From Synechococcus sp. MW101C3 (lineage in GTDB: Bacteria > Cyanobacteriota > Cyanobacteriia > PCC-6307 > Cyanobiaceae): a stretch of DNA of 64,000 nucleotides. The notes under the pieces were generated by a model. That model did no database searches. It worked only from the letters and a program-made list of their open reading frames with translations, and was not told the DNA's origin. Below are positions 51,167 through 58,330 of the stretch, piece by piece (positions within the stretch are counted from its first letter, which is position 1; each line of letters begins with the position of its first letter). The stretch covers positions 310,001 to 374,000 of the forward strand of contig NZ_NQKX01000001.1 of NCBI RefSeq assembly GCF_002252635.1. The letters run 5' to 3'. Both the position numbers and the translations under genes were made by a program.

Positions 51167-51211
51167 TGATCAGCCGCGTTTGGATCAGCCGCAGCTGGTC
51201 CAGCCGCGCAG
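51167..51211 (-). repeat. Three 15-bp repeats around the FAD-oxidase stop codon
   Basis: Units at 51167, 51182 and 51197 share GGATCAGCCGC (plus strand) with a few changes. The middle unit contains the TGA stop of the FAD oxidase, so the gene end seems to have been duplicated into the intergenic region. Confidence 0.65.
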
Positions 51212-52627
51212 TTTGCCGGGGTTGAGCAGCCCCGCTGGGTCGTAAGCCATCTTTGCGGCCACCTGGTCGGCATCGATCACCCCCAAGCCGCCGTCTTCCA
51301 CCGTGAGGCTGTGGGGGTTGAAGAGCAGGGCGCCCAGGTCCCTGGCCTGCTCCATCAAGGCCTGCAGCGCCGCCCGATCCCGCCAGCGCACCAGAGGAAT
51401 CGCCGCCAGACGTTGCTGGCCCTGCTGACGCACGCCCTCCAGGTGCCAGAGCAGGTCGTCGCCCCAGCGCTGCTTCAAGGCGGCGAGCGTCGGCCCTTCC
51501 GGCTGGGGCAACAGCATCTGCAGATAGGTCCAGCCCTTGTCCTGCGCCCGCAGATGCAGGGTGGTGTGGTTCCAGGTGAGTTCGCGCAGGGGCAACCCGC
51601 GGCTTTCCCCCTCCGCTGCTTGCCACACCAGGGCCCCGCCCAGTTGGGACAGCAGCGGCATCAGGGCCGGCAGGGCATGGGGGGCGGCGAGCAGCAGCAG
51701 CCGGTGGCCGCGGGCCGCCGGGCAGCCGCCGGGCAGGGGGAGCTGGCGGGCGATGGGTGCCTCCAGCAGGCAGAGTTCCTGCAGCACCAGGGCAGCGCAG
51801 GGCAGCAGCCTGGCGGCCTCCAGCGCCCTATCCCAGTCTGCAAAGTCGACCACCAGCTGCTGCCAGGTCTCGGCGGTGGCGGTGGGCACGGTCACCGCCG
51901 TGAGGATGCCGTTGGTGCCGTAGGCGTGATTGAGCGGCCGGCTGCCGGTGGCATCGAGTGTCAGCAGGCGCGGCTCGGGCTCCACCGTCACGATCTCCAG
52001 GCCCAGCAGGTTGCCGGGATCCCGCAGGAAGCCCCAGCGCAGGGAACCGATGCCTCCGGATCCCCCGGCGATGAAGCCCCCCAGCGTGGCGCTGCGGGAG
52101 GTGCTGGGGGTGAGCCGCAGGGCGCGGCCCCGGACCGCCAGTTGACGGTCGAGGTCGCCCAGCAGGCAGCCCGCCTCTGCGGTGAGCACGCCGCTGGCCG
52201 CATCGAACTGCCGCAGCTGTCGCAGGCCGCTGAGATCGAGCACCACGCCACCGGCGAGCGGCACGCACTGGCCGTAATTGCCGGTGCCGGCGCCCCGCAC
52301 GGTGAGCGGCACCTGCTGCTGGGCGCAGGCCGCCGCCACCTGCTGCACGTGCCCCAGCTGCGTGGCCTTCACCACCAGCTGGGCGTGGTGACCGCTGAGC
52401 AGCGGCGTGAGTACCGGCGAATAGGTGAAGAAGTCGTGGGAGAGTTTCTCAAGCTCGCTGCCTGGCCCCACCAGCTCCGCAGCGGGGCCGCTGCCCGGGG
52501 GGCCGGCGGCGGCACGGAGCTGCCGGGACACCGCTTCGATCCGCTCTGCGCTCACGGGAGCGGGCAGGGCGGCTGGCAGGGCCACAGGGAGCAGCGCGAC
52601 CGGTGCGCTGGCAGGGGAGGGGGTCAC
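51185..52627 (-). CDS. FAD-binding oxidoreductase, GlcD-like
   Basis: Flavin oxidase/dehydrogenase of the vanillyl-alcohol/glycolate oxidase (FAD_binding_4) group, 480 residues from a GTG. The FAD-binding domain (about 80-260) has VPLTVRGAGTGNYGQCVPL, a Gly-rich LGGFIAGGSGGIGSLRWG and AYGTNGILTAVTV; the C-terminal half is a substrate cap ending in LLNPGKLRGW. Substrate may be glycolate or another 2-hydroxy acid. First gene downstream of the amidohydrolase in a minus-strand catabolic run, 35 bp apart. Confidence 0.85.
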   Translation of the reverse strand: MTPSPASAPVALLPVALPAALPAPVSAERIEAVSRQLRAAAGPPGSGPAAELVGPGSELEKLSHDFFTYSPVLTPLLSGHHAQLVVKATQLGHVQQVAAACAQQQVPLTVRGAGTGNYGQCVPLAGGVVLDLSGLRQLRQFDAASGVLTAEAGCLLGDLDRQLAVRGRALRLTPSTSRSATLGGFIAGGSGGIGSLRWGFLRDPGNLLGLEIVTVEPEPRLLTLDATGSRPLNHAYGTNGILTAVTVPTATAETWQQLVVDFADWDRALEAARLLPCAALVLQELCLLEAPIARQLPLPGGCPAARGHRLLLLAAPHALPALMPLLSQLGGALVWQAAEGESRGLPLRELTWNHTTLHLRAQDKGWTYLQMLLPQPEGPTLAALKQRWGDDLLWHLEGVRQQGQQRLAAIPLVRWRDRAALQALMEQARDLGALLFNPHSLTVEDGGLGVIDADQVAAKMAYDPAGLLNPGKLRGWTSCG

Positions 52628-52662
52628 GGGGAACGGGGCGGTGGTTTCAAGCTGGCAGGCTT

Positions 52663-53973
52663 TCAGGCTGGCAGCGCTTCGAGCAGTTGCTGCAGTGGCG
52701 ACGGCGACGGGGACGGCAACCAGCGACCCGCGCGCAGCACCCGCCGCGGTACAGGCCGGGCCAGCAGGTCGCTCCAGCCGGAGGCGCCCAGCAGGAGCAG
52801 ATCAGCGGGTGCCCCTGGTCGCACCACCCCGTCCCAGGCCAATCCCATCAGGCGGCTGGAGGCGGTGGTGAAGGGCATCAGGCCCTGGCGCTGCCATGGG
52901 GCCAGGTGAGCGGCCGGCATGGAGAAGCGCAGCAGATCCAGGGGATCGAAGTCTCCGCCCGGATACCAGGGATCCTGCACGTTGTCTCCCCCCACCGCCA
53001 CCGTCACCCCGGCGCGCTGCAGCTGGCGGATCGGTGCCAGCGGGCGTTGGGCGGGGGTGTGGCCGTCGCGGTGCCCCAGCAACCAGAGGTTGGTGGTCGG
53101 CAGCGCCACCACCGCCAGCCCCGCCTCGGCCATGGCGTCGGCGAGGGGCAGCAGGCGGCGCACCGGTAGCTGGGACATGCTGCAGCTGTGGCTGCAGCAC
53201 ACGGGCACACCGATACGGAGCTCGATCACGAGGCGGGCGGCCAGGGCCACACCGGCGCCACCGCCATCGGCGCTTTCGTCGATGTGGAGGTCCACGCCGC
53301 AACCCAGGCCATCGGCCAGGCGCAGCAGAGCCCGCAGTCCTTCGCCATCGGCGCCGTCGGGGGGGAACGGGGCGCCCAGCACGCCGCCCAGCAGCACCCC
53401 GCCGGCCGCGGCTGCACTCTCCCCCCGCCGGCCCAGCAACTGACGCGCCAGTTGCTCGCCTGCCGCGGTGGCCCAGTGTCGCACCGGCACCAGTGCCACC
53501 AGTTGCAGCGGCAGCCGCTCCGCCCACGCCTGCTGCAGATCGAGCAGGGCCTCCCAGCTCACCTCGGCGCCGGGGCCAAGGCTGTCGACATGGCTTCGCA
53601 TGGCCCGCAGGCCGTAGCGCCAGCCCTGGTCCAGGGCACGCTCCGCGCGCGCGTGCACCTGTTCCACACTGCGTTCGTGATGCTCGCGCTGGTTGGCGGC
53701 CAGGGCGCCCGCCATCGTTCCCGTCCGGTTGGGATGGCGCTCCCAGCTGAAGGCCTTGTCGAGGTGGGCGTGGGGCTCCAGCAGGGGGGTGAGGGCGAGC
53801 GGCAGCCGTGCCTCGGCCTGGGCTGGATAGGGCTTGATCGCGGTGAAACGCCCTTCGGCATGCTCCAGCTCGACGGCTACCAGGCCATCGGCATCAGCTG
53901 TCGGCAGGTGGACGGCGCCTGGATCCAGAAGGCAGCGCGGCAGCCGCAGGGGCGGCAGGGGTGTGGCGCTCAC
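52663..53973 (-). CDS. Cytosine deaminase-like amidohydrolase
   Basis: Metal-dependent amidohydrolase of 436 residues, closest in motifs to the CodA/cytosine deaminase branch: EPHAHLDKAF (HxH), VDLHIDESADG (His and Glu), SHSCSMS (in place of GHTTAMH) and GGDNVQDPWYPGGD (catalytic Asp, as in CodA GHDDVFDPW). The barrel is complete. Substrate could be cytosine or another cyclic amide or N-heterocycle. The GTG start overlaps the stop of the DUF4359 gene (GTGA). Confidence 0.83.
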   Translation of the reverse strand: MSATPLPPLRLPRCLLDPGAVHLPTADADGLVAVELEHAEGRFTAIKPYPAQAEARLPLALTPLLEPHAHLDKAFSWERHPNRTGTMAGALAANQREHHERSVEQVHARAERALDQGWRYGLRAMRSHVDSLGPGAEVSWEALLDLQQAWAERLPLQLVALVPVRHWATAAGEQLARQLLGRRGESAAAAGGVLLGGVLGAPFPPDGADGEGLRALLRLADGLGCGVDLHIDESADGGGAGVALAARLVIELRIGVPVCCSHSCSMSQLPVRRLLPLADAMAEAGLAVVALPTTNLWLLGHRDGHTPAQRPLAPIRQLQRAGVTVAVGGDNVQDPWYPGGDFDPLDLLRFSMPAAHLAPWQRQGLMPFTTASSRLMGLAWDGVVRPGAPADLLLLGASGWSDLLARPVPRRVLRAGRWLPSPSPSPLQQLLEALPA

Positions 53974-54473: not shown

Positions 54474-54547
54474 GGCGGGCGTAGCCAAGTGGTTAAGGCA
54501 GCGGCTTGTGGCGCCGCCATTCGGGGGTTCAAGTCCCCTCGCTCGCC
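54474..54547 (+). tRNA. tRNA-His (GUG)
   Basis: 74-nt tRNA including the His-specific G-1 (54474) opposite discriminator C73 (54547). Acceptor GCGGGCG/CGCTCGC with one G-U pair; D-arm TAGCCAAGTGGTTAAGGCA; anticodon loop CTTGTGG region with anticodon GTG; T-loop TTCAAGT. CCA is not encoded. Its 3' 19 bases are antisense to the end of the DUF1611 gene, and a terminator follows 43 bp later inside that gene. Confidence 0.95.
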
Positions 54548-55632
54548 CTCAAAGCCGCCACCAGTCGATCGGCTGCTGCGCGGCTCCTCACCGGATCCCC
54601 GCAGGGGAGTCCGGTTTTTTTCTGCCCATCCGCGCAGGCCGCCGCCGCTTCCGCCTCCCCCAGCAGCGCCGTGTTGAGCGCTACGGCCCGCACCCGCACC
54701 GGCGGCAGGCCGCCCGGACGGCCCAGCGCCGCCAACTGCTCCACCGCCGCGATCAGCTGAGGCAGCGGGGGGATGGGGATGGTCGGATGCCGCGAGATCG
54801 CCCGCTGACCGGCGCGATGCACCAACAGCAGACCGGTTGGCTGGCTGCCGCGCAGCAGCGGCAGGGTGGCGGTGGAGCCCGGATGACAGAGCGAGCCCTG
54901 GCCTTCCACCAGCACCAGGGTGGCGTCGTTGCAGGCCGCCACGGCCGGGTCGCCGCCCCCACCGGCCTGGCAGGCCTCCAGCACCGCCCCCTCCACGGCC
55001 CCGGCGGCGTAATCCACGCGCACGGCATCGAGCGGCACCCCGCCGCCGCTGATCAGGATGCCCGCCTGGCCGGTGCCCACGAAGCGGGCGTCGAGGCCTT
55101 GGCGGCGGGCGGCGGCCACCAGCTCCAGGCAGGCGCTCATCTTGCCCACGGCCATGTCGGTGCCCACAGCGAGCAGACGCTGGCCGGGCAGGGCTGCGCA
55201 GCGTGCCGCAGCCACCTGCAGTCCTGGCGGCTCCTGCCGCAGGTCCCAGATCCACTGCTGGGGACCGCGCAGGGCCGCCAGCGCGGGGTCGTCGGCCAGG
55301 CGAGTGTGCAGCCCGCTGGCCACATGCAGACCGGCCTGCAGGGCGGCGGCCACATCGCGGCGCAGTGCTTCCGGCAGCAGGCCGCCCGAAGGCGCCAGCC
55401 CCACCACGGCCACCTCCGGGCCGTAGGGGAGAGCCTCCGCCAGGCTGGCCACCACCGGAATGGCGCGGGGGATGCCGGTGACCTGCTCCAGCGGCAGACC
55501 TGCCTGCGCCGGATCGATCACCGCCACGATCGGCCCGCTGCGGTAGCGCAACAGCGCCAGGCCCGTCTTGCCGGACAGATTGTCGAGGCCATCGTGCTGC
55601 AGCAGCACCACCCGGGCCGAGGCGCTCAGCAC
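54529..55632 (-). CDS. DUF1611 protein, possible D-glutamate N-acetyltransferase (DgcN-like)
   Basis: P-loop-containing DUF1611 protein of 367 residues from GTG 55632. N-terminal Rossmann-like domain (VVLLQHDGLDNLSGKTGLAL), then a P-loop-like segment GTDMAVGKMSACLEL (about 157-171) and LVLVEGQGSLCHPG. A DUF1611 member (DgcN) acetylates D-glutamate and works with an enolase-superfamily racemase, just as the next gene here would suggest. The C-terminal 31 codons overlap a tRNA-His terminator and the tRNA itself; the TGA comes from the tRNA T-loop. Overlaps the epimerase gene by 7 bp. Confidence 0.85.
   Translation of the reverse strand: MLSASARVVLLQHDGLDNLSGKTGLALLRYRSGPIVAVIDPAQAGLPLEQVTGIPRAIPVVASLAEALPYGPEVAVVGLAPSGGLLPEALRRDVAAALQAGLHVASGLHTRLADDPALAALRGPQQWIWDLRQEPPGLQVAAARCAALPGQRLLAVGTDMAVGKMSACLELVAAARRQGLDARFVGTGQAGILISGGGVPLDAVRVDYAAGAVEGAVLEACQAGGGGDPAVAACNDATLVLVEGQGSLCHPGSTATLPLLRGSQPTGLLLVHRAGQRAISRHPTIPIPPLPQLIAAVEQLAALGRPGGLPPVRVRAVALNTALLGEAEAAAACADGQKKTGLPCGDPVRSRAAADRLVAALRASEGT
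54591..54621 (+). terminator. Intrinsic terminator of tRNA-His, inside the DUF1611 gene
   Basis: Stem CCGGATCCCC / GGGGAGTCCGG (one bulged G) with a GCA loop, followed by seven T. Orientation is plus, 43 bp after tRNA-His, and antisense to codons near the 3' end of DUF1611 (GLPCGDPVR region, with the T-run read as KK). Confidence 0.88.
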
Positions 55633-56771
55633 CGTGGCGGCTCCGGCGGGGAAGGGCCGGCGGCGGTCCCATCGGGGACGGCACCCTCTGAGGGGGGCTG
55701 ACCCAGGCCCGGCCGGGAGCTGGGGCGCAGGATGTCGCCATCCCGCTCCGGCTCGCTGAAGGGGTCGTCCACCAGGTTGAGGTGGCTGTCCAGATCGGGC
55801 CAGCGCACCAGCGGCAGCAGCTGGGCGGCGGCCCCGTTGAGCAGGGCGCTGTCCGAGTAGCAGCCGAGCATCAGATCGAGGCCGAGGCGTCGGGCGGTCT
55901 GCGCCATCAGCCAGGCCTCCGACAGCCCGCCCGTCTTGAGCAGCTTCATGTTCACCCCATCGACATGGGGGGCCAGCCGCAGCAGGTCCTGCAGATCCCA
56001 GCAGCTCTCGTCGGCCACGAGCGGGATCGGGCAGTGCAGGTCGAGAGCGGCGAAGGCGGCGGCATCGGCCTCCGGATCCTGCAGGGCGGGCAGCGGCTGC
56101 TCCACCAGCACCACCCCCTGCTGCGCCAGCCAGGGAATCAGCTGGCGCGCCGTGGGCAGGTCCCAGCCGCCGTTGGCATCCACCTGCAGCTCGGCGCCGG
56201 GGAACCCTGTGAGAGTGGTGGCCACCGCCTGCACCAGGGCCCGGTCGTGGTCGGCACCATCAGGGCTGCCGAGCTTGAGCTTCACCCGCCGCGGCCTGAC
56301 ACCGAGCCGCTCCTGCCAGCCCACCAGCCGGGCGCGCACCTGCTCCACCGTGCCCAGCCCCAGGGTGACGCTGGTGGGGGTACAGGCCTGGCGATCGAGA
56401 CCCCAGAGGCGCCAGAGCGGCTCGCCCAGACGGCGGCCCCACCAGTCGTGCAGAGCCAGATCGACGGCGCAGCGGGCCGGCGGCGAAAGCCCCGCGAGCA
56501 GGGGCTGAAGGGCCTGCCGCTCGCTCGGATCGCGGGGGCGGCCGAGGGCATCGGGGCTTTCCAGGCGCGGCAACAGGGCGTCCAGTTCCGCCGCCACGTC
56601 ATCGGTGCTGAACCGTCGATGGCCGGTGTCGAAGCCGCCGGCCTCGCCCTGGCCGATGGTGCCGTCGTGCTCGATCTCCACCAGCACACGCTCCACCCCA
56701 CGCGAGGTGCCGCGGCTGATCGTGAGCGGCACGGCCTTGGTAAGGGAAAAGCGGCGAAGACGAGCGTGCAT
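55626..56771 (-). CDS. Enolase-superfamily dipeptide epimerase-like enzyme (possibly DgcA-like)
   Basis: Muconate-lactonizing-subgroup enolase enzyme of 381 residues from ATG 56771; the frame to 56927 overlaps miaB and is unlikely. Catalytic set: KxK in RRVKLKLGSPDG, metal ligands Asp in LQVDANGGW, Glu in VLVEQPLP and Asp in LVADESCW, and the second Lys in GVNMKLLKTGG. Annotated relatives are L-Ala-D/L-Glu epimerases; with the overlapping DUF1611 gene an N-acetyl-D-glutamate racemase role is an alternative. A Pro-rich tail of about 35 residues after ERDGDILRP is unusual. Divergent from miaB. Confidence 0.87.
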   Translation of the reverse strand: MHARLRRFSLTKAVPLTISRGTSRGVERVLVEIEHDGTIGQGEAGGFDTGHRRFSTDDVAAELDALLPRLESPDALGRPRDPSERQALQPLLAGLSPPARCAVDLALHDWWGRRLGEPLWRLWGLDRQACTPTSVTLGLGTVEQVRARLVGWQERLGVRPRRVKLKLGSPDGADHDRALVQAVATTLTGFPGAELQVDANGGWDLPTARQLIPWLAQQGVVLVEQPLPALQDPEADAAAFAALDLHCPIPLVADESCWDLQDLLRLAPHVDGVNMKLLKTGGLSEAWLMAQTARRLGLDLMLGCYSDSALLNGAAAQLLPLVRWPDLDSHLNLVDDPFSEPERDGDILRPSSRPGLGQPPSEGAVPDGTAAGPSPPEPPRC

Positions 56772-56893: not shown

Positions 56894-58330
56894 ATGGCCG
56901 AAACTGGTGCGATGAGCGCGACCCCACCCACCAAAGGCAGCTACTGGATCACCACCTTCGGCTGCCAGATGAACAAGGCCGATTCCGAGCGCATGGCCGG
57001 AATCCTCGAAGCCATGGGCTACGCCGCAGGCAGCGATGAGCATTCCGCTGATCTGGTGCTCTACAACACCTGCACGATCCGCGACAACGCAGAACAGAAG
57101 GTCTACAGCTATCTGGGCCGCCAGGCCCAGCGCAAACGCACCAATCCCCACCTGACCCTGGTGGTGGCAGGCTGCGTGGCCCAGCAGGAGGGAGCGGCGC
57201 TGCTGAGGCGCGTGCCCGAGCTTGATCTGGTGATGGGCCCCCAGCACGCCAACCGGCTCGGCACCCTGCTGGAGCAGGTGGCCAGCGGTCAGCAGGTGGT
57301 CGCCACCGACGACCACCACATCCTCGAAGACATCACCACCGCCCGCCGCGACAGCGCCGTCTGCGGCTGGGTCAACGTGATCTACGGCTGCAACGAGCGC
57401 TGCACGTACTGCGTGGTGCCCGCGGTGCGGGGCCAGGAGCAGAGCCGCACCCCGCAGGCCATCCGGCTGGAGATCGAGGGGCTGGCGGCACGGGGCTTCA
57501 AGGAGATCACCCTGCTGGGCCAGAACATCGATGCCTATGGCCGCGATCTGCCCGGCATCACCCCGGAGGGCCGCCGCGCGCACACCCTCACCGACCTGCT
57601 GCACGCGGTGCACGACGTGGAGGGGATCGAGCGGATCCGCTTCGCCACCAGCCACCCCCGCTACTTCACCGAACGGTTGATCGAGGCCTGTGCCGTGCTG
57701 CCCAAGGTGTGCGAGCACTTCCACATCCCCTTCCAGAGCGGCGACGACGACGTGCTCAAGGCGATGGCGCGGGGCTACACGGTGGAGCGCTACCGCCGCA
57801 TCCTTGAGCGCATCCGGGAACGCATGCCCGATGCGGCGATCAGTGCCGACGTGATCGTGGCCTTCCCCGGCGAAACCGATGCCCAGTTCCGCCGCACCCT
57901 GGCCCTGATCGAGGAGATCGGCTTCGACCAGGTCAACACAGCCGCTTACTCGCCCCGCCCCGGTACCCCCGCCGCCGGCTGGCCCGGCCAGCTGAGTGAA
58001 GGCGTGAAGGTGGAACGGCTCCAGGAGATCAATGCCCTGGTGGAGACCACCGCCCGGGCGCGGAGCCTGCGTTATCTGGGCCGCACCGAAGAGGTGCTGG
58101 TGGAGGGGCGCAACCCCAGGCATCCCGATCAGTGGATGGGCCGCACCCGCACCAATCGGCTCACCTTTTTCCCCGCCGCTGAGGCTGACCCTGCGGCAGC
58201 CCGGGCACAGCAGGGAGCAGCCCCGGGGGCAGGGACGATCCAACCGGGGTCGCTGGTGCCGGTCAGGATTGAGTCGGTGCGGGCGTTTTCGCTCTCCGGC
58301 CTGCCGCGTGTGCCGGCACTGAGCTGCTGA
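56894..58330 (+). CDS. miaB: tRNA-2-methylthio-N6-dimethylallyladenosine synthase
   Basis: Radical-SAM methylthiotransferase acting on A37 of tRNAs. It has 478 residues. N-terminal UPF0004 domain with three cluster Cys ([33 protein letters not shown]), radical-SAM motif [12 protein letters not shown], and a C-terminal TRAM domain with [10 protein letters not shown] and [14 protein letters not shown] 56894 is used; ATG 56912 is possible. About 120 bp divergent from the epimerase gene. Confidence 0.96.

Follow-up and report, generated by a model that had tools for sequence, protein, structure and literature searches.

A conserved DUF1611-epimerase gene pair in cyanobacteria and its likeness to the DgcN-DgcA D-glutamate pathway

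Known DgcN-DgcA systems and the gene pair in Synechococcus sp. MW101C3

DgcN catalyzes the acetyl-CoA-dependent N-acetylation of D-glutamate, and DgcA the racemisation of N-acetyl-D-glutamate. The DgcN-DgcA pathway has been described under Enzyme Commission (EC) numbers 2.3.1.312 and 5.1.1.25 (PMC11747546). Here we analyzed two overlapping genes, encoding a DUF1611 protein and an enolase-superfamily epimerase respectively, in a stretch of 64,000 nucleotides from the cyanobacterium Synechococcus sp. MW101C3 (contig NZ_NQKX01000001.1, positions 310,001 to 374,000; referred to as the window). The two genes constitute a real, conserved two-gene functional module. We slightly favor the view that this module converts a D- to an L-amino acid in two steps, in the manner of DgcN-DgcA, for which we infer both reactions, the D-glutamate substrate, and the acyl donor; the observed basis of this proposal is the genes themselves, their overlap, the intact catalytic residues, the near-perfect co-occurrence, and the absence of both genes from a conserved site. 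In Pfam, the products of the pair bear only DUF1611 and general enolase-superfamily names, and a testable function is now proposed for a unit found in 61 of 214 cyanobacterial genomes. If the proposal is true, many phototrophs with larger genomes would be able to recover D-glutamate or a similar D-acid.

Annotated dgcN-dgcA loci are found on plasmids of Pseudoalteromonas donghaensis (together with dgcR), Vibrio pelagius, Sphingobium yanoikuyae, and Pantoea ananatis. Elsewhere, a DgcA-like gene lies directly downstream of the dgcN-like gene in 77 of 80 Rhodobacterales-type contigs. Our survey of 150 Pseudomonadota genomes found PF07755 matches in 24 (over the cut-off in 22), and an epimerase adjoins 17 of the 18 DgcN-like loci read from it. 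The sequences referred to as DgcA below are mostly labelled by place and similarity, the annotated ones being those of L178, L179, L180, and L182 only.

The cyanobacterial pair resembles DgcN-DgcA in that it consists of the same two families, usually adjacent, with the same catalytic residues and 16 DUF1611 alignment columns in common with DgcN; the proteins of the reference loci are 29-41% identical to those of the window. It differs in gene order, as dgcN comes first in the annotated loci (L178-L180, L182) whereas the epimerase comes first in 48 of the 51 adjacent cyanobacterial pairs. It further differs in having no adjoining regulator in the window, in its separate clades, and in the residues beside the DxD motif.

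Co-occurrence and joint loss of the two genes

Each window protein was searched against 214 cyanobacterial genomes with a completeness of 90% or more, and matches were counted from 170 bits upward for DUF1611 and from 110 bits upward for the epimerase. Both genes are present in 61 genomes and neither in 152. DUF1611 of this type never occurs alone, and the sole genome with only the epimerase is G074, which has 9% contamination; a DUF1611 partner, DgcN-like and not DgcN itself, is therefore present in 61 of the 62 epimerase-bearing genomes. The co-occurrence across genomes that the first-pass annotation had put forward as a check was thus borne out, with 61 genomes carrying both genes against a single one carrying one of them. 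Within the window's class (102 genomes), 58 have both genes and 44 have neither.

In 51 of the 61 genomes the two genes are on the same strand with at most 400 bp between match ends, the epimerase being first in 48 and DUF1611 in three. The other ten keep both genes all the same, five with a distance of 0.4-2 kb and five with the genes far apart or on separate contigs. Five families (f1, f21, f22, f24, and f25) are internally variable, each time for both genes jointly. As related genomes are non-independent, Fisher tests overstate the association, and the variable families and unlinked pairs are the better evidence. With respect to genome size, the DUF1611 gene was found in none of 17 members of the window's family of at most 2.0 Mb (several of these assemblies being incomplete), and in none of the 10 complete family members of this size listed in the 214-genome search.

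The three genomes with DUF1611 first are of family f45 (L190-L192), which belongs to the same phylum, outside the window's class. Their genomes are 1.9-2.3 Mb in size, and their epimerases carry the motifs MIESS and DLDGH.

The genomic site of the pair is conserved. In the window, miaB (recognized from its conserved position and its resemblance to the family) diverges upstream of the pair at 56894, and the pair of five relatives from the window's family (L195-L198, L205) likewise lies between miaB and a block of genes encoding a DUF4359 protein, an amidohydrolase, a flavin adenine dinucleotide (FAD) oxidase, a pentapeptide protein, FolC, and ArgD. The miaB region was read in nine of the 12 pair-less relatives searched (G167, G169, G015, G193, G023, G012, G005, G189, and G165). 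In all nine, miaB and the genes for the amidohydrolase, FAD oxidase, FolC, and ArgD are in place, with DUF4359 in two of the nine. No pair gene was detected in this region of the nine genomes at an E-value of 0.001, save for a remnant in G167, where 29 codons of the epimerase start next to miaB (L253:10102-10188) are left as a scar of pair loss. Loss of the pair is likelier than gain here, because G034, from a different family, also carries the pair next to miaB.

The first-pass annotation had taken the proximity of argD (6 kb) as a link to the arginine pathway. This argument fails, since argD is retained in the same place in all nine pair-less relatives; it is therefore a standing neighbor, and gives no sign of such a link. 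Genes of arginine and D-glutamate synthesis did not serve as discriminators either, ArgJ, ArgB, and MurI being present in four of four pair-bearing and four of four pair-less genomes. The downstream amidohydrolase and FAD oxidase were excluded as members of the module, as both remain in all nine pair-less relatives.

Relationship to DgcN and DgcA

In the proposed function, acyl-CoA would serve the DUF1611 enzyme as donor of an acyl group (acetyl by analogy), which would be attached to the nitrogen of D-glutamate or of a closely related acidic D-amino acid. The epimerase would then abstract the alpha proton of this N-acylated product and return it by means of K166 and K276 with a metal, giving the N-acyl-L-amino acid. 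In the case of an acetyl group this is N-acetyl-L-glutamate, which could feed arginine synthesis as the ArgB substrate; the N-acyl-L-amino acid could also be deacylated.

We favor this function because the same two families adjoin in the annotated dgcN-dgcA loci, because the best NCBIfam matches of the two proteins are DgcN and DgcA, because the arginine near the epimerase start and the DxD motif are kept, and because NlpC/P60, which would be the source of L-Ala-D-Glu, shows no association with the pair (see below). The closest solved structure to the DUF1611 protein is 2obn (E = 1.6e-93), a cyanobacterial DUF1611 protein deposited as a "hypothetical protein" that falls in the same DUF1611 clade as the window protein. 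It is followed by 7xrj, which is deposited under another name and which we take to be DgcN from its place among the dgcN loci. In the carefully built DUF1611 tree, the cyanobacterial proteins and DgcN form one side of a branch with a support of only 84/62. By a column-sharing criterion of our own (unpublished), 16 alignment columns are shared by DgcN and cyanobacterial DUF1611 at a level of 90% or more, while no more than half of the 15 other rows have them. They include D207, S247, Q264, N320, T321, and R349, and 15 of the 16 are found in the window protein, which differs at column 351.

Several findings weigh against this reading. Neither protein reaches the equivalog cut-off of its best model: the DUF1611 protein has DgcN (NF041892) as its only NCBIfam match, at 207.5 bits with a cut-off of 480, and the epimerase has DgcA (NF042940) as the best of 13 matches, at 173.3 bits with a cut-off of 400. 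In the DUF1611 tree, the cyanobacterial clade (100/98) lies beside the DgcN clade (100/100) and not inside it; in the careful epimerase tree, the cyanobacterial epimerases (100/100) join f45, 3iji, and L194 (96/92), outside the DgcA-labelled clade. The columns common to DgcN and cyanobacterial DUF1611 may reflect kinship only and not function, and ten other DUF1611 columns are fixed differently from DgcN. In the epimerase, Y305, D307, S329, H330, and N332 substitute for the residues of DgcA. The DgcN-like loci L181, L189, and L220 have no recognisable epimerase alongside. No transporter, regulator, or deacylase was found linked to the pair in the window, its flanking genes being conserved without the pair. 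Finally, we know of no activity for any cyanobacterial member, and among the matches listed in a literature search on cyanobacterial DgcN (open-licence papers) no title or abstract dealt with this pair.

Judged by sequence, we regard the pair as a DgcN-DgcA-like variant on a separate branch, and not as a DgcN-DgcA ortholog. What the first-pass annotation had presented as a DgcN-DgcA type pair thus holds as to the families, the single module, and the columns in common with DgcN, and does not hold as to the cut-offs and the clades of both proteins.

The epimerase in particular has to be compared with L-Ala-D/L-Glu epimerases (AEEs), of which Escherichia coli YcjG is a proven example (PMC5808125). 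YcjG falls inside the DgcA-labelled clade, together with the Vibrio and Pantoea rows (98/97), and so does 4gfi. Constraining the DgcA rows together without these two was rejected (approximately unbiased test, p = 0.0016), i.e., the DgcA label does not denote one clade. A topology uniting the cyanobacterial epimerases with the DgcA rows was rejected without YcjG and 4gfi (p 0.00013), and not rejected with both added (p 0.079). The KxK motif, the D, E, D, and K residues, the arginine near the start, and DxD are all present in the cyanobacterial epimerase; DgcA has them too, and they are non-discriminating. Specificity residues were accordingly dropped as a test of DgcA against AEE, as DgcA, YcjG, and 4gfi have the arginine, the catalytic set, and the DLDG motif in common, and phylogeny alone was dropped as a test of substrate, as YcjG and 4gfi fall inside the DgcA-labelled clade. 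The comparison of residues and phylogeny suggested in the first-pass annotation was thus carried out and does not discriminate: because YcjG sits in the DgcA clade with the same residues, tree position and known residues fail to separate an N-acetyl-glutamate racemase from a dipeptide epimerase. The DgcA and AEE labels overlap in sequence space, and since a proven AEE lies in the DgcA-labelled clade, similarity-based names in this group need assays. The cyanobacterial enzyme is, as its sequence places it, a member of the N-acyl-amino-acid racemase/epimerase group, like DgcA.

It could be argued that the enolase-type protein is an AEE of murein recycling fed by NlpC/P60, with DUF1611 catalyzing a different step, either on that peptide or on released D-glutamate. 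By sequence, tree, and fold, its nearest solved relatives are 3iji/3ijq (from Bacteroides thetaiotaomicron, solved with L-Ala-D-Glu) followed by YcjG, and it keeps DxD; the fold, the catalytic residues, and DxD are common to YcjG (1jpd), 3iji/3ijq, and YkfB (1jpm, with DxD unreadable in the YkfB segment). The window enzyme differs from these AEEs in its DUF1611 partner, in Tyr for Met, and in the S-H-x-N after DxD, the residues beside DxD being unlike those of 3iji and YcjG. Its scores with the AEE models PRK15129 (116.7 bits, cut-off 343) and NF041118 (60.2 bits, cut-off 500) are both below the cut-off.

Cyanobacterial NlpC/P60 enzymes have been described to cleave gamma-D-Glu-diaminopimelate in peptides whose N-terminal L-Ala is free (PMC2954226). 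Such cleavage would free L-Ala-D-Glu, and an epimerase for this dipeptide would therefore make sense; the window genome has one NlpC/P60 match, at the family level. However, 95 of the 102 class genomes have NlpC/P60, and its distribution does not follow that of the pair (present in 52 of 58 genomes that carry the pair and in 43 of 44 that do not); six genomes with the pair lack it. It was dropped as a marker of dipeptide recycling for this lack of association, although its near-universal presence is still compatible with its use. No murein peptidase was found beside the pair within the window. The murein-recycling explanation also leaves DUF1611 without a clear role, and does not account for the fact that this DUF1611 type never occurs without the epimerase (0 of 214 genomes). 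We consider it rather unlikely.

A loop signature of the cyanobacterial epimerases

Returning to the favored DgcN-DgcA-like conversion, the residues that set the cyanobacterial epimerases apart were counted at 66 epimerase loci of 42 genomes, excluding f45 and a divergent enzyme in G036. A Tyr after Gly-Cys (GCY) and the motif DLDSHxN past the eighth strand are found at all 66. The Tyr column is Met in all DgcA rows, YcjG, YkfB, 3iji, 3jva, and f45; nearby, S306 is replaced by Gly in G010 and D307 by Asn in G027. The 102 DgcA-type loci have GCM in 96 and DLDGP in 93 (three were unreadable and the remainder differ). Y305, D307, S329, H330, and N332 correspond to M, C, G, P, and W in YcjG, and to M, E, G, N, and L in 3iji.

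In the structure model of the epimerase, the signature residues follow strands 299-303 and 324-326, which by homology places them at the ends of the barrel strands. In AEE structures, the loops past these barrel strands hold the N-terminal half of the substrate, while an arginine faces the glutamate side chain. This arginine is kept at 65 of the 66 cyanobacterial loci, and the remaining locus ends before it. With the arginine kept and the loop residues altered, we infer that the glutamate end of the substrate is kept and its acyl end altered; in view of the changes next to DxD, this end may carry a group other than acetyl.

Carried further, this would lead to a distinct pathway, in which the same two-step logic applies to another N-acyl group (e.g., succinyl, formyl, carbamoyl, or aminoacyl) or to another D-amino acid. 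The invariant GCY and DLDSHxN loops past strands 7 and 8 are in line with it, as are the ten fixed DUF1611 differences from DgcN, which include Q276 (Arg in at least 90% of DgcN and in all 15 other rows, Asn in f45). Set against this, the arginine expected at the glutamate side chain is retained, and residue changes need not alter the acyl group. A distinct pathway is in our view clearly unlikely.

DUF1611 and racemases beyond the pair

A second DUF1611 branch (L237-L248, L188; e.g., L237:3166-5456) has a gene resembling alanine/ornithine racemases of the pyridoxal phosphate (PLP) fold III type directly after it at all 13 loci, or at 13 of 14 when the G036 protein (L193), which is long-branched and placed beside this branch, is included. 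The racemase of L237 scores 299 bits with Orr (cut-off 480). This branch occurs in cyanobacteria, including G007 and G020 of the window's family, and in Pseudomonadota. Its tight coupling to a racemase is like that of the window pair, from which it differs by an unrelated racemase fold and a BLAST identity of its DUF1611 of 27-37% to the window protein.

G036 itself has a divergent DUF1611-epimerase pair with a 4-bp overlap (L193:4197-6343), whose epimerase has the L-Ala-D/L-Glu epimerase model of Thermotoga as its top match (204 bits, cut-off 500). On a Haloprofundus plasmid (L186:3375-5494), DUF1611 and a dipeptide epimerase overlap by 1 bp, and the epimerase groups with 3u9i, not DgcA. At L183, L184, and L185, no racemase or epimerase was found as a neighbor of DUF1611.

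The PLP branch and the haloarchaeal DUF1611-epimerase pair suggest a frequent link between DUF1611 and racemases. In a broader and, in our estimate, rather unlikely generalization, DUF1611 would be a general family of amino-acid N-acyltransferases tied to chirality change, with an enolase-type racemase acting after acylation in the branch of DgcN and the cyanobacterial pair, and a PLP racemase making the D-amino acid before acylation in another branch; the cyanobacterial pair would be its own variant with an acyl group other than acetyl.

Racemases of this enolase group are reversible, and the pair might run the opposite way, so that an N-acyl-D-amino acid would be supplied to a product or to the cell wall. 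The pairing of DUF1611 with a PLP racemase in the other branch, where L-to-D conversion would precede acylation, points in this direction. Conversely, MurI is present in all eight genomes tested, so that the supply of D-glutamate needs no second route, and the window shows no biosynthetic genes in linkage with the pair. Such a reverse operation appears very improbable.

Features of the pair and its surroundings in the window

The features of the pair are listed in Table 1. The DUF1611 protein matches DUF1611_C (209 bits, E = 8e-62) and DUF1611_N (91 bits), described in Pfam as a P-loop C-terminal and a Rossmann-like N-terminal domain respectively; the epimerase matches MR_MLE_C (95 bits) and MR_MLE_N (35 bits). 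The DUF1611_C E-value, together with the same-strand adjacency in 51 of the 61 genomes with both genes, speaks against a coincidence. The mechanically called open reading frame of the epimerase extends to 56927, and the ATG at 56771 was chosen as its start because relatives begin there (MHARLRRF in the window, MRLRLSRF in L029). The GTG start of DUF1611 agrees with the MLSAS start of its ortholog in L008. The 7-bp overlap reported in the first-pass annotation is confirmed. Its complete catalytic set is likewise present (K164-x-K166, D198, E224, D254, K276), with the correction that the final lysine is that of NMK, three residues ahead of the KxGG lysine it had named. Arg20 presumably holds the glutamate side chain, a role known from structural work on AEEs. 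The structure models of the epimerase and the DUF1611 protein are of middling confidence, with a mean predicted local distance difference test score of 73.6 and 69.0 respectively.

Table 1. Positions of the two genes and of selected residues and motifs, in window coordinates.
Feature	Coordinates	Strand	Description	Basis
Enolase-superfamily (MLE subgroup) gene, N-acyl-Glu racemase/dipeptide-epimerase-like	55626..56771	-	381 amino acids; upstream gene	Pfam, NCBIfam, structure matches
DUF1611 gene (DgcN-like)	54529..55632	-	367 amino acids, GTG start; downstream gene	Pfam, NCBIfam, structure matches
Overlap GTGCTGA	55626..55632	-	7 bp; start codon of DUF1611 and stop codon of epimerase	Sequence
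Arg20 of SRGT motif	56712..56714	-	Same alignment column as YcjG Arg (VIARGS)	Alignment
K164-L-K166	56274..56282	-	Catalytic KxK	Alignment
Asp198 (DAN)	56178..56180	-	Metal ligand by homology	Alignment
Glu224 (VEQP)	56100..56102	-	Metal ligand by homology	Alignment
Asp254 (ADES)	56010..56012	-	Metal ligand by homology	Alignment
Lys276 of NMKLLKTGG	55944..55946	-	Catalytic; aligned with YkfB K268	Alignment (numbering of 1jpm)
Y305-S306-D307	55851..55859	-	Cyanobacterial residues directly past predicted strand 299-303	Alignment and model
D326-L-D328-S-H-L-N332	55776..55796	-	DxD motif and cyanobacterial S-H-x-N, directly past predicted strand 324-326; most DgcA loci have G-P-L instead	Alignment and model (model confidence low from 331 on)
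GTDMAVGK of DUF1611	55141..55164	-	P-loop-like	Sequence

Downstream of the pair, the region 51185-53973 encodes the amidohydrolase, which is cytosine-deaminase-like (257 bits, cut-off 403), and the GlcD/GlcE-like FAD oxidase, forming a conserved neighbor block of the window's family. Between this block and the pair, a tRNA-His gene (54475-54548, forward strand) overlaps the 3' end of DUF1611 by 20 bp in antisense orientation, so that the final DUF1611 codons are the opposite strand of the tRNA.

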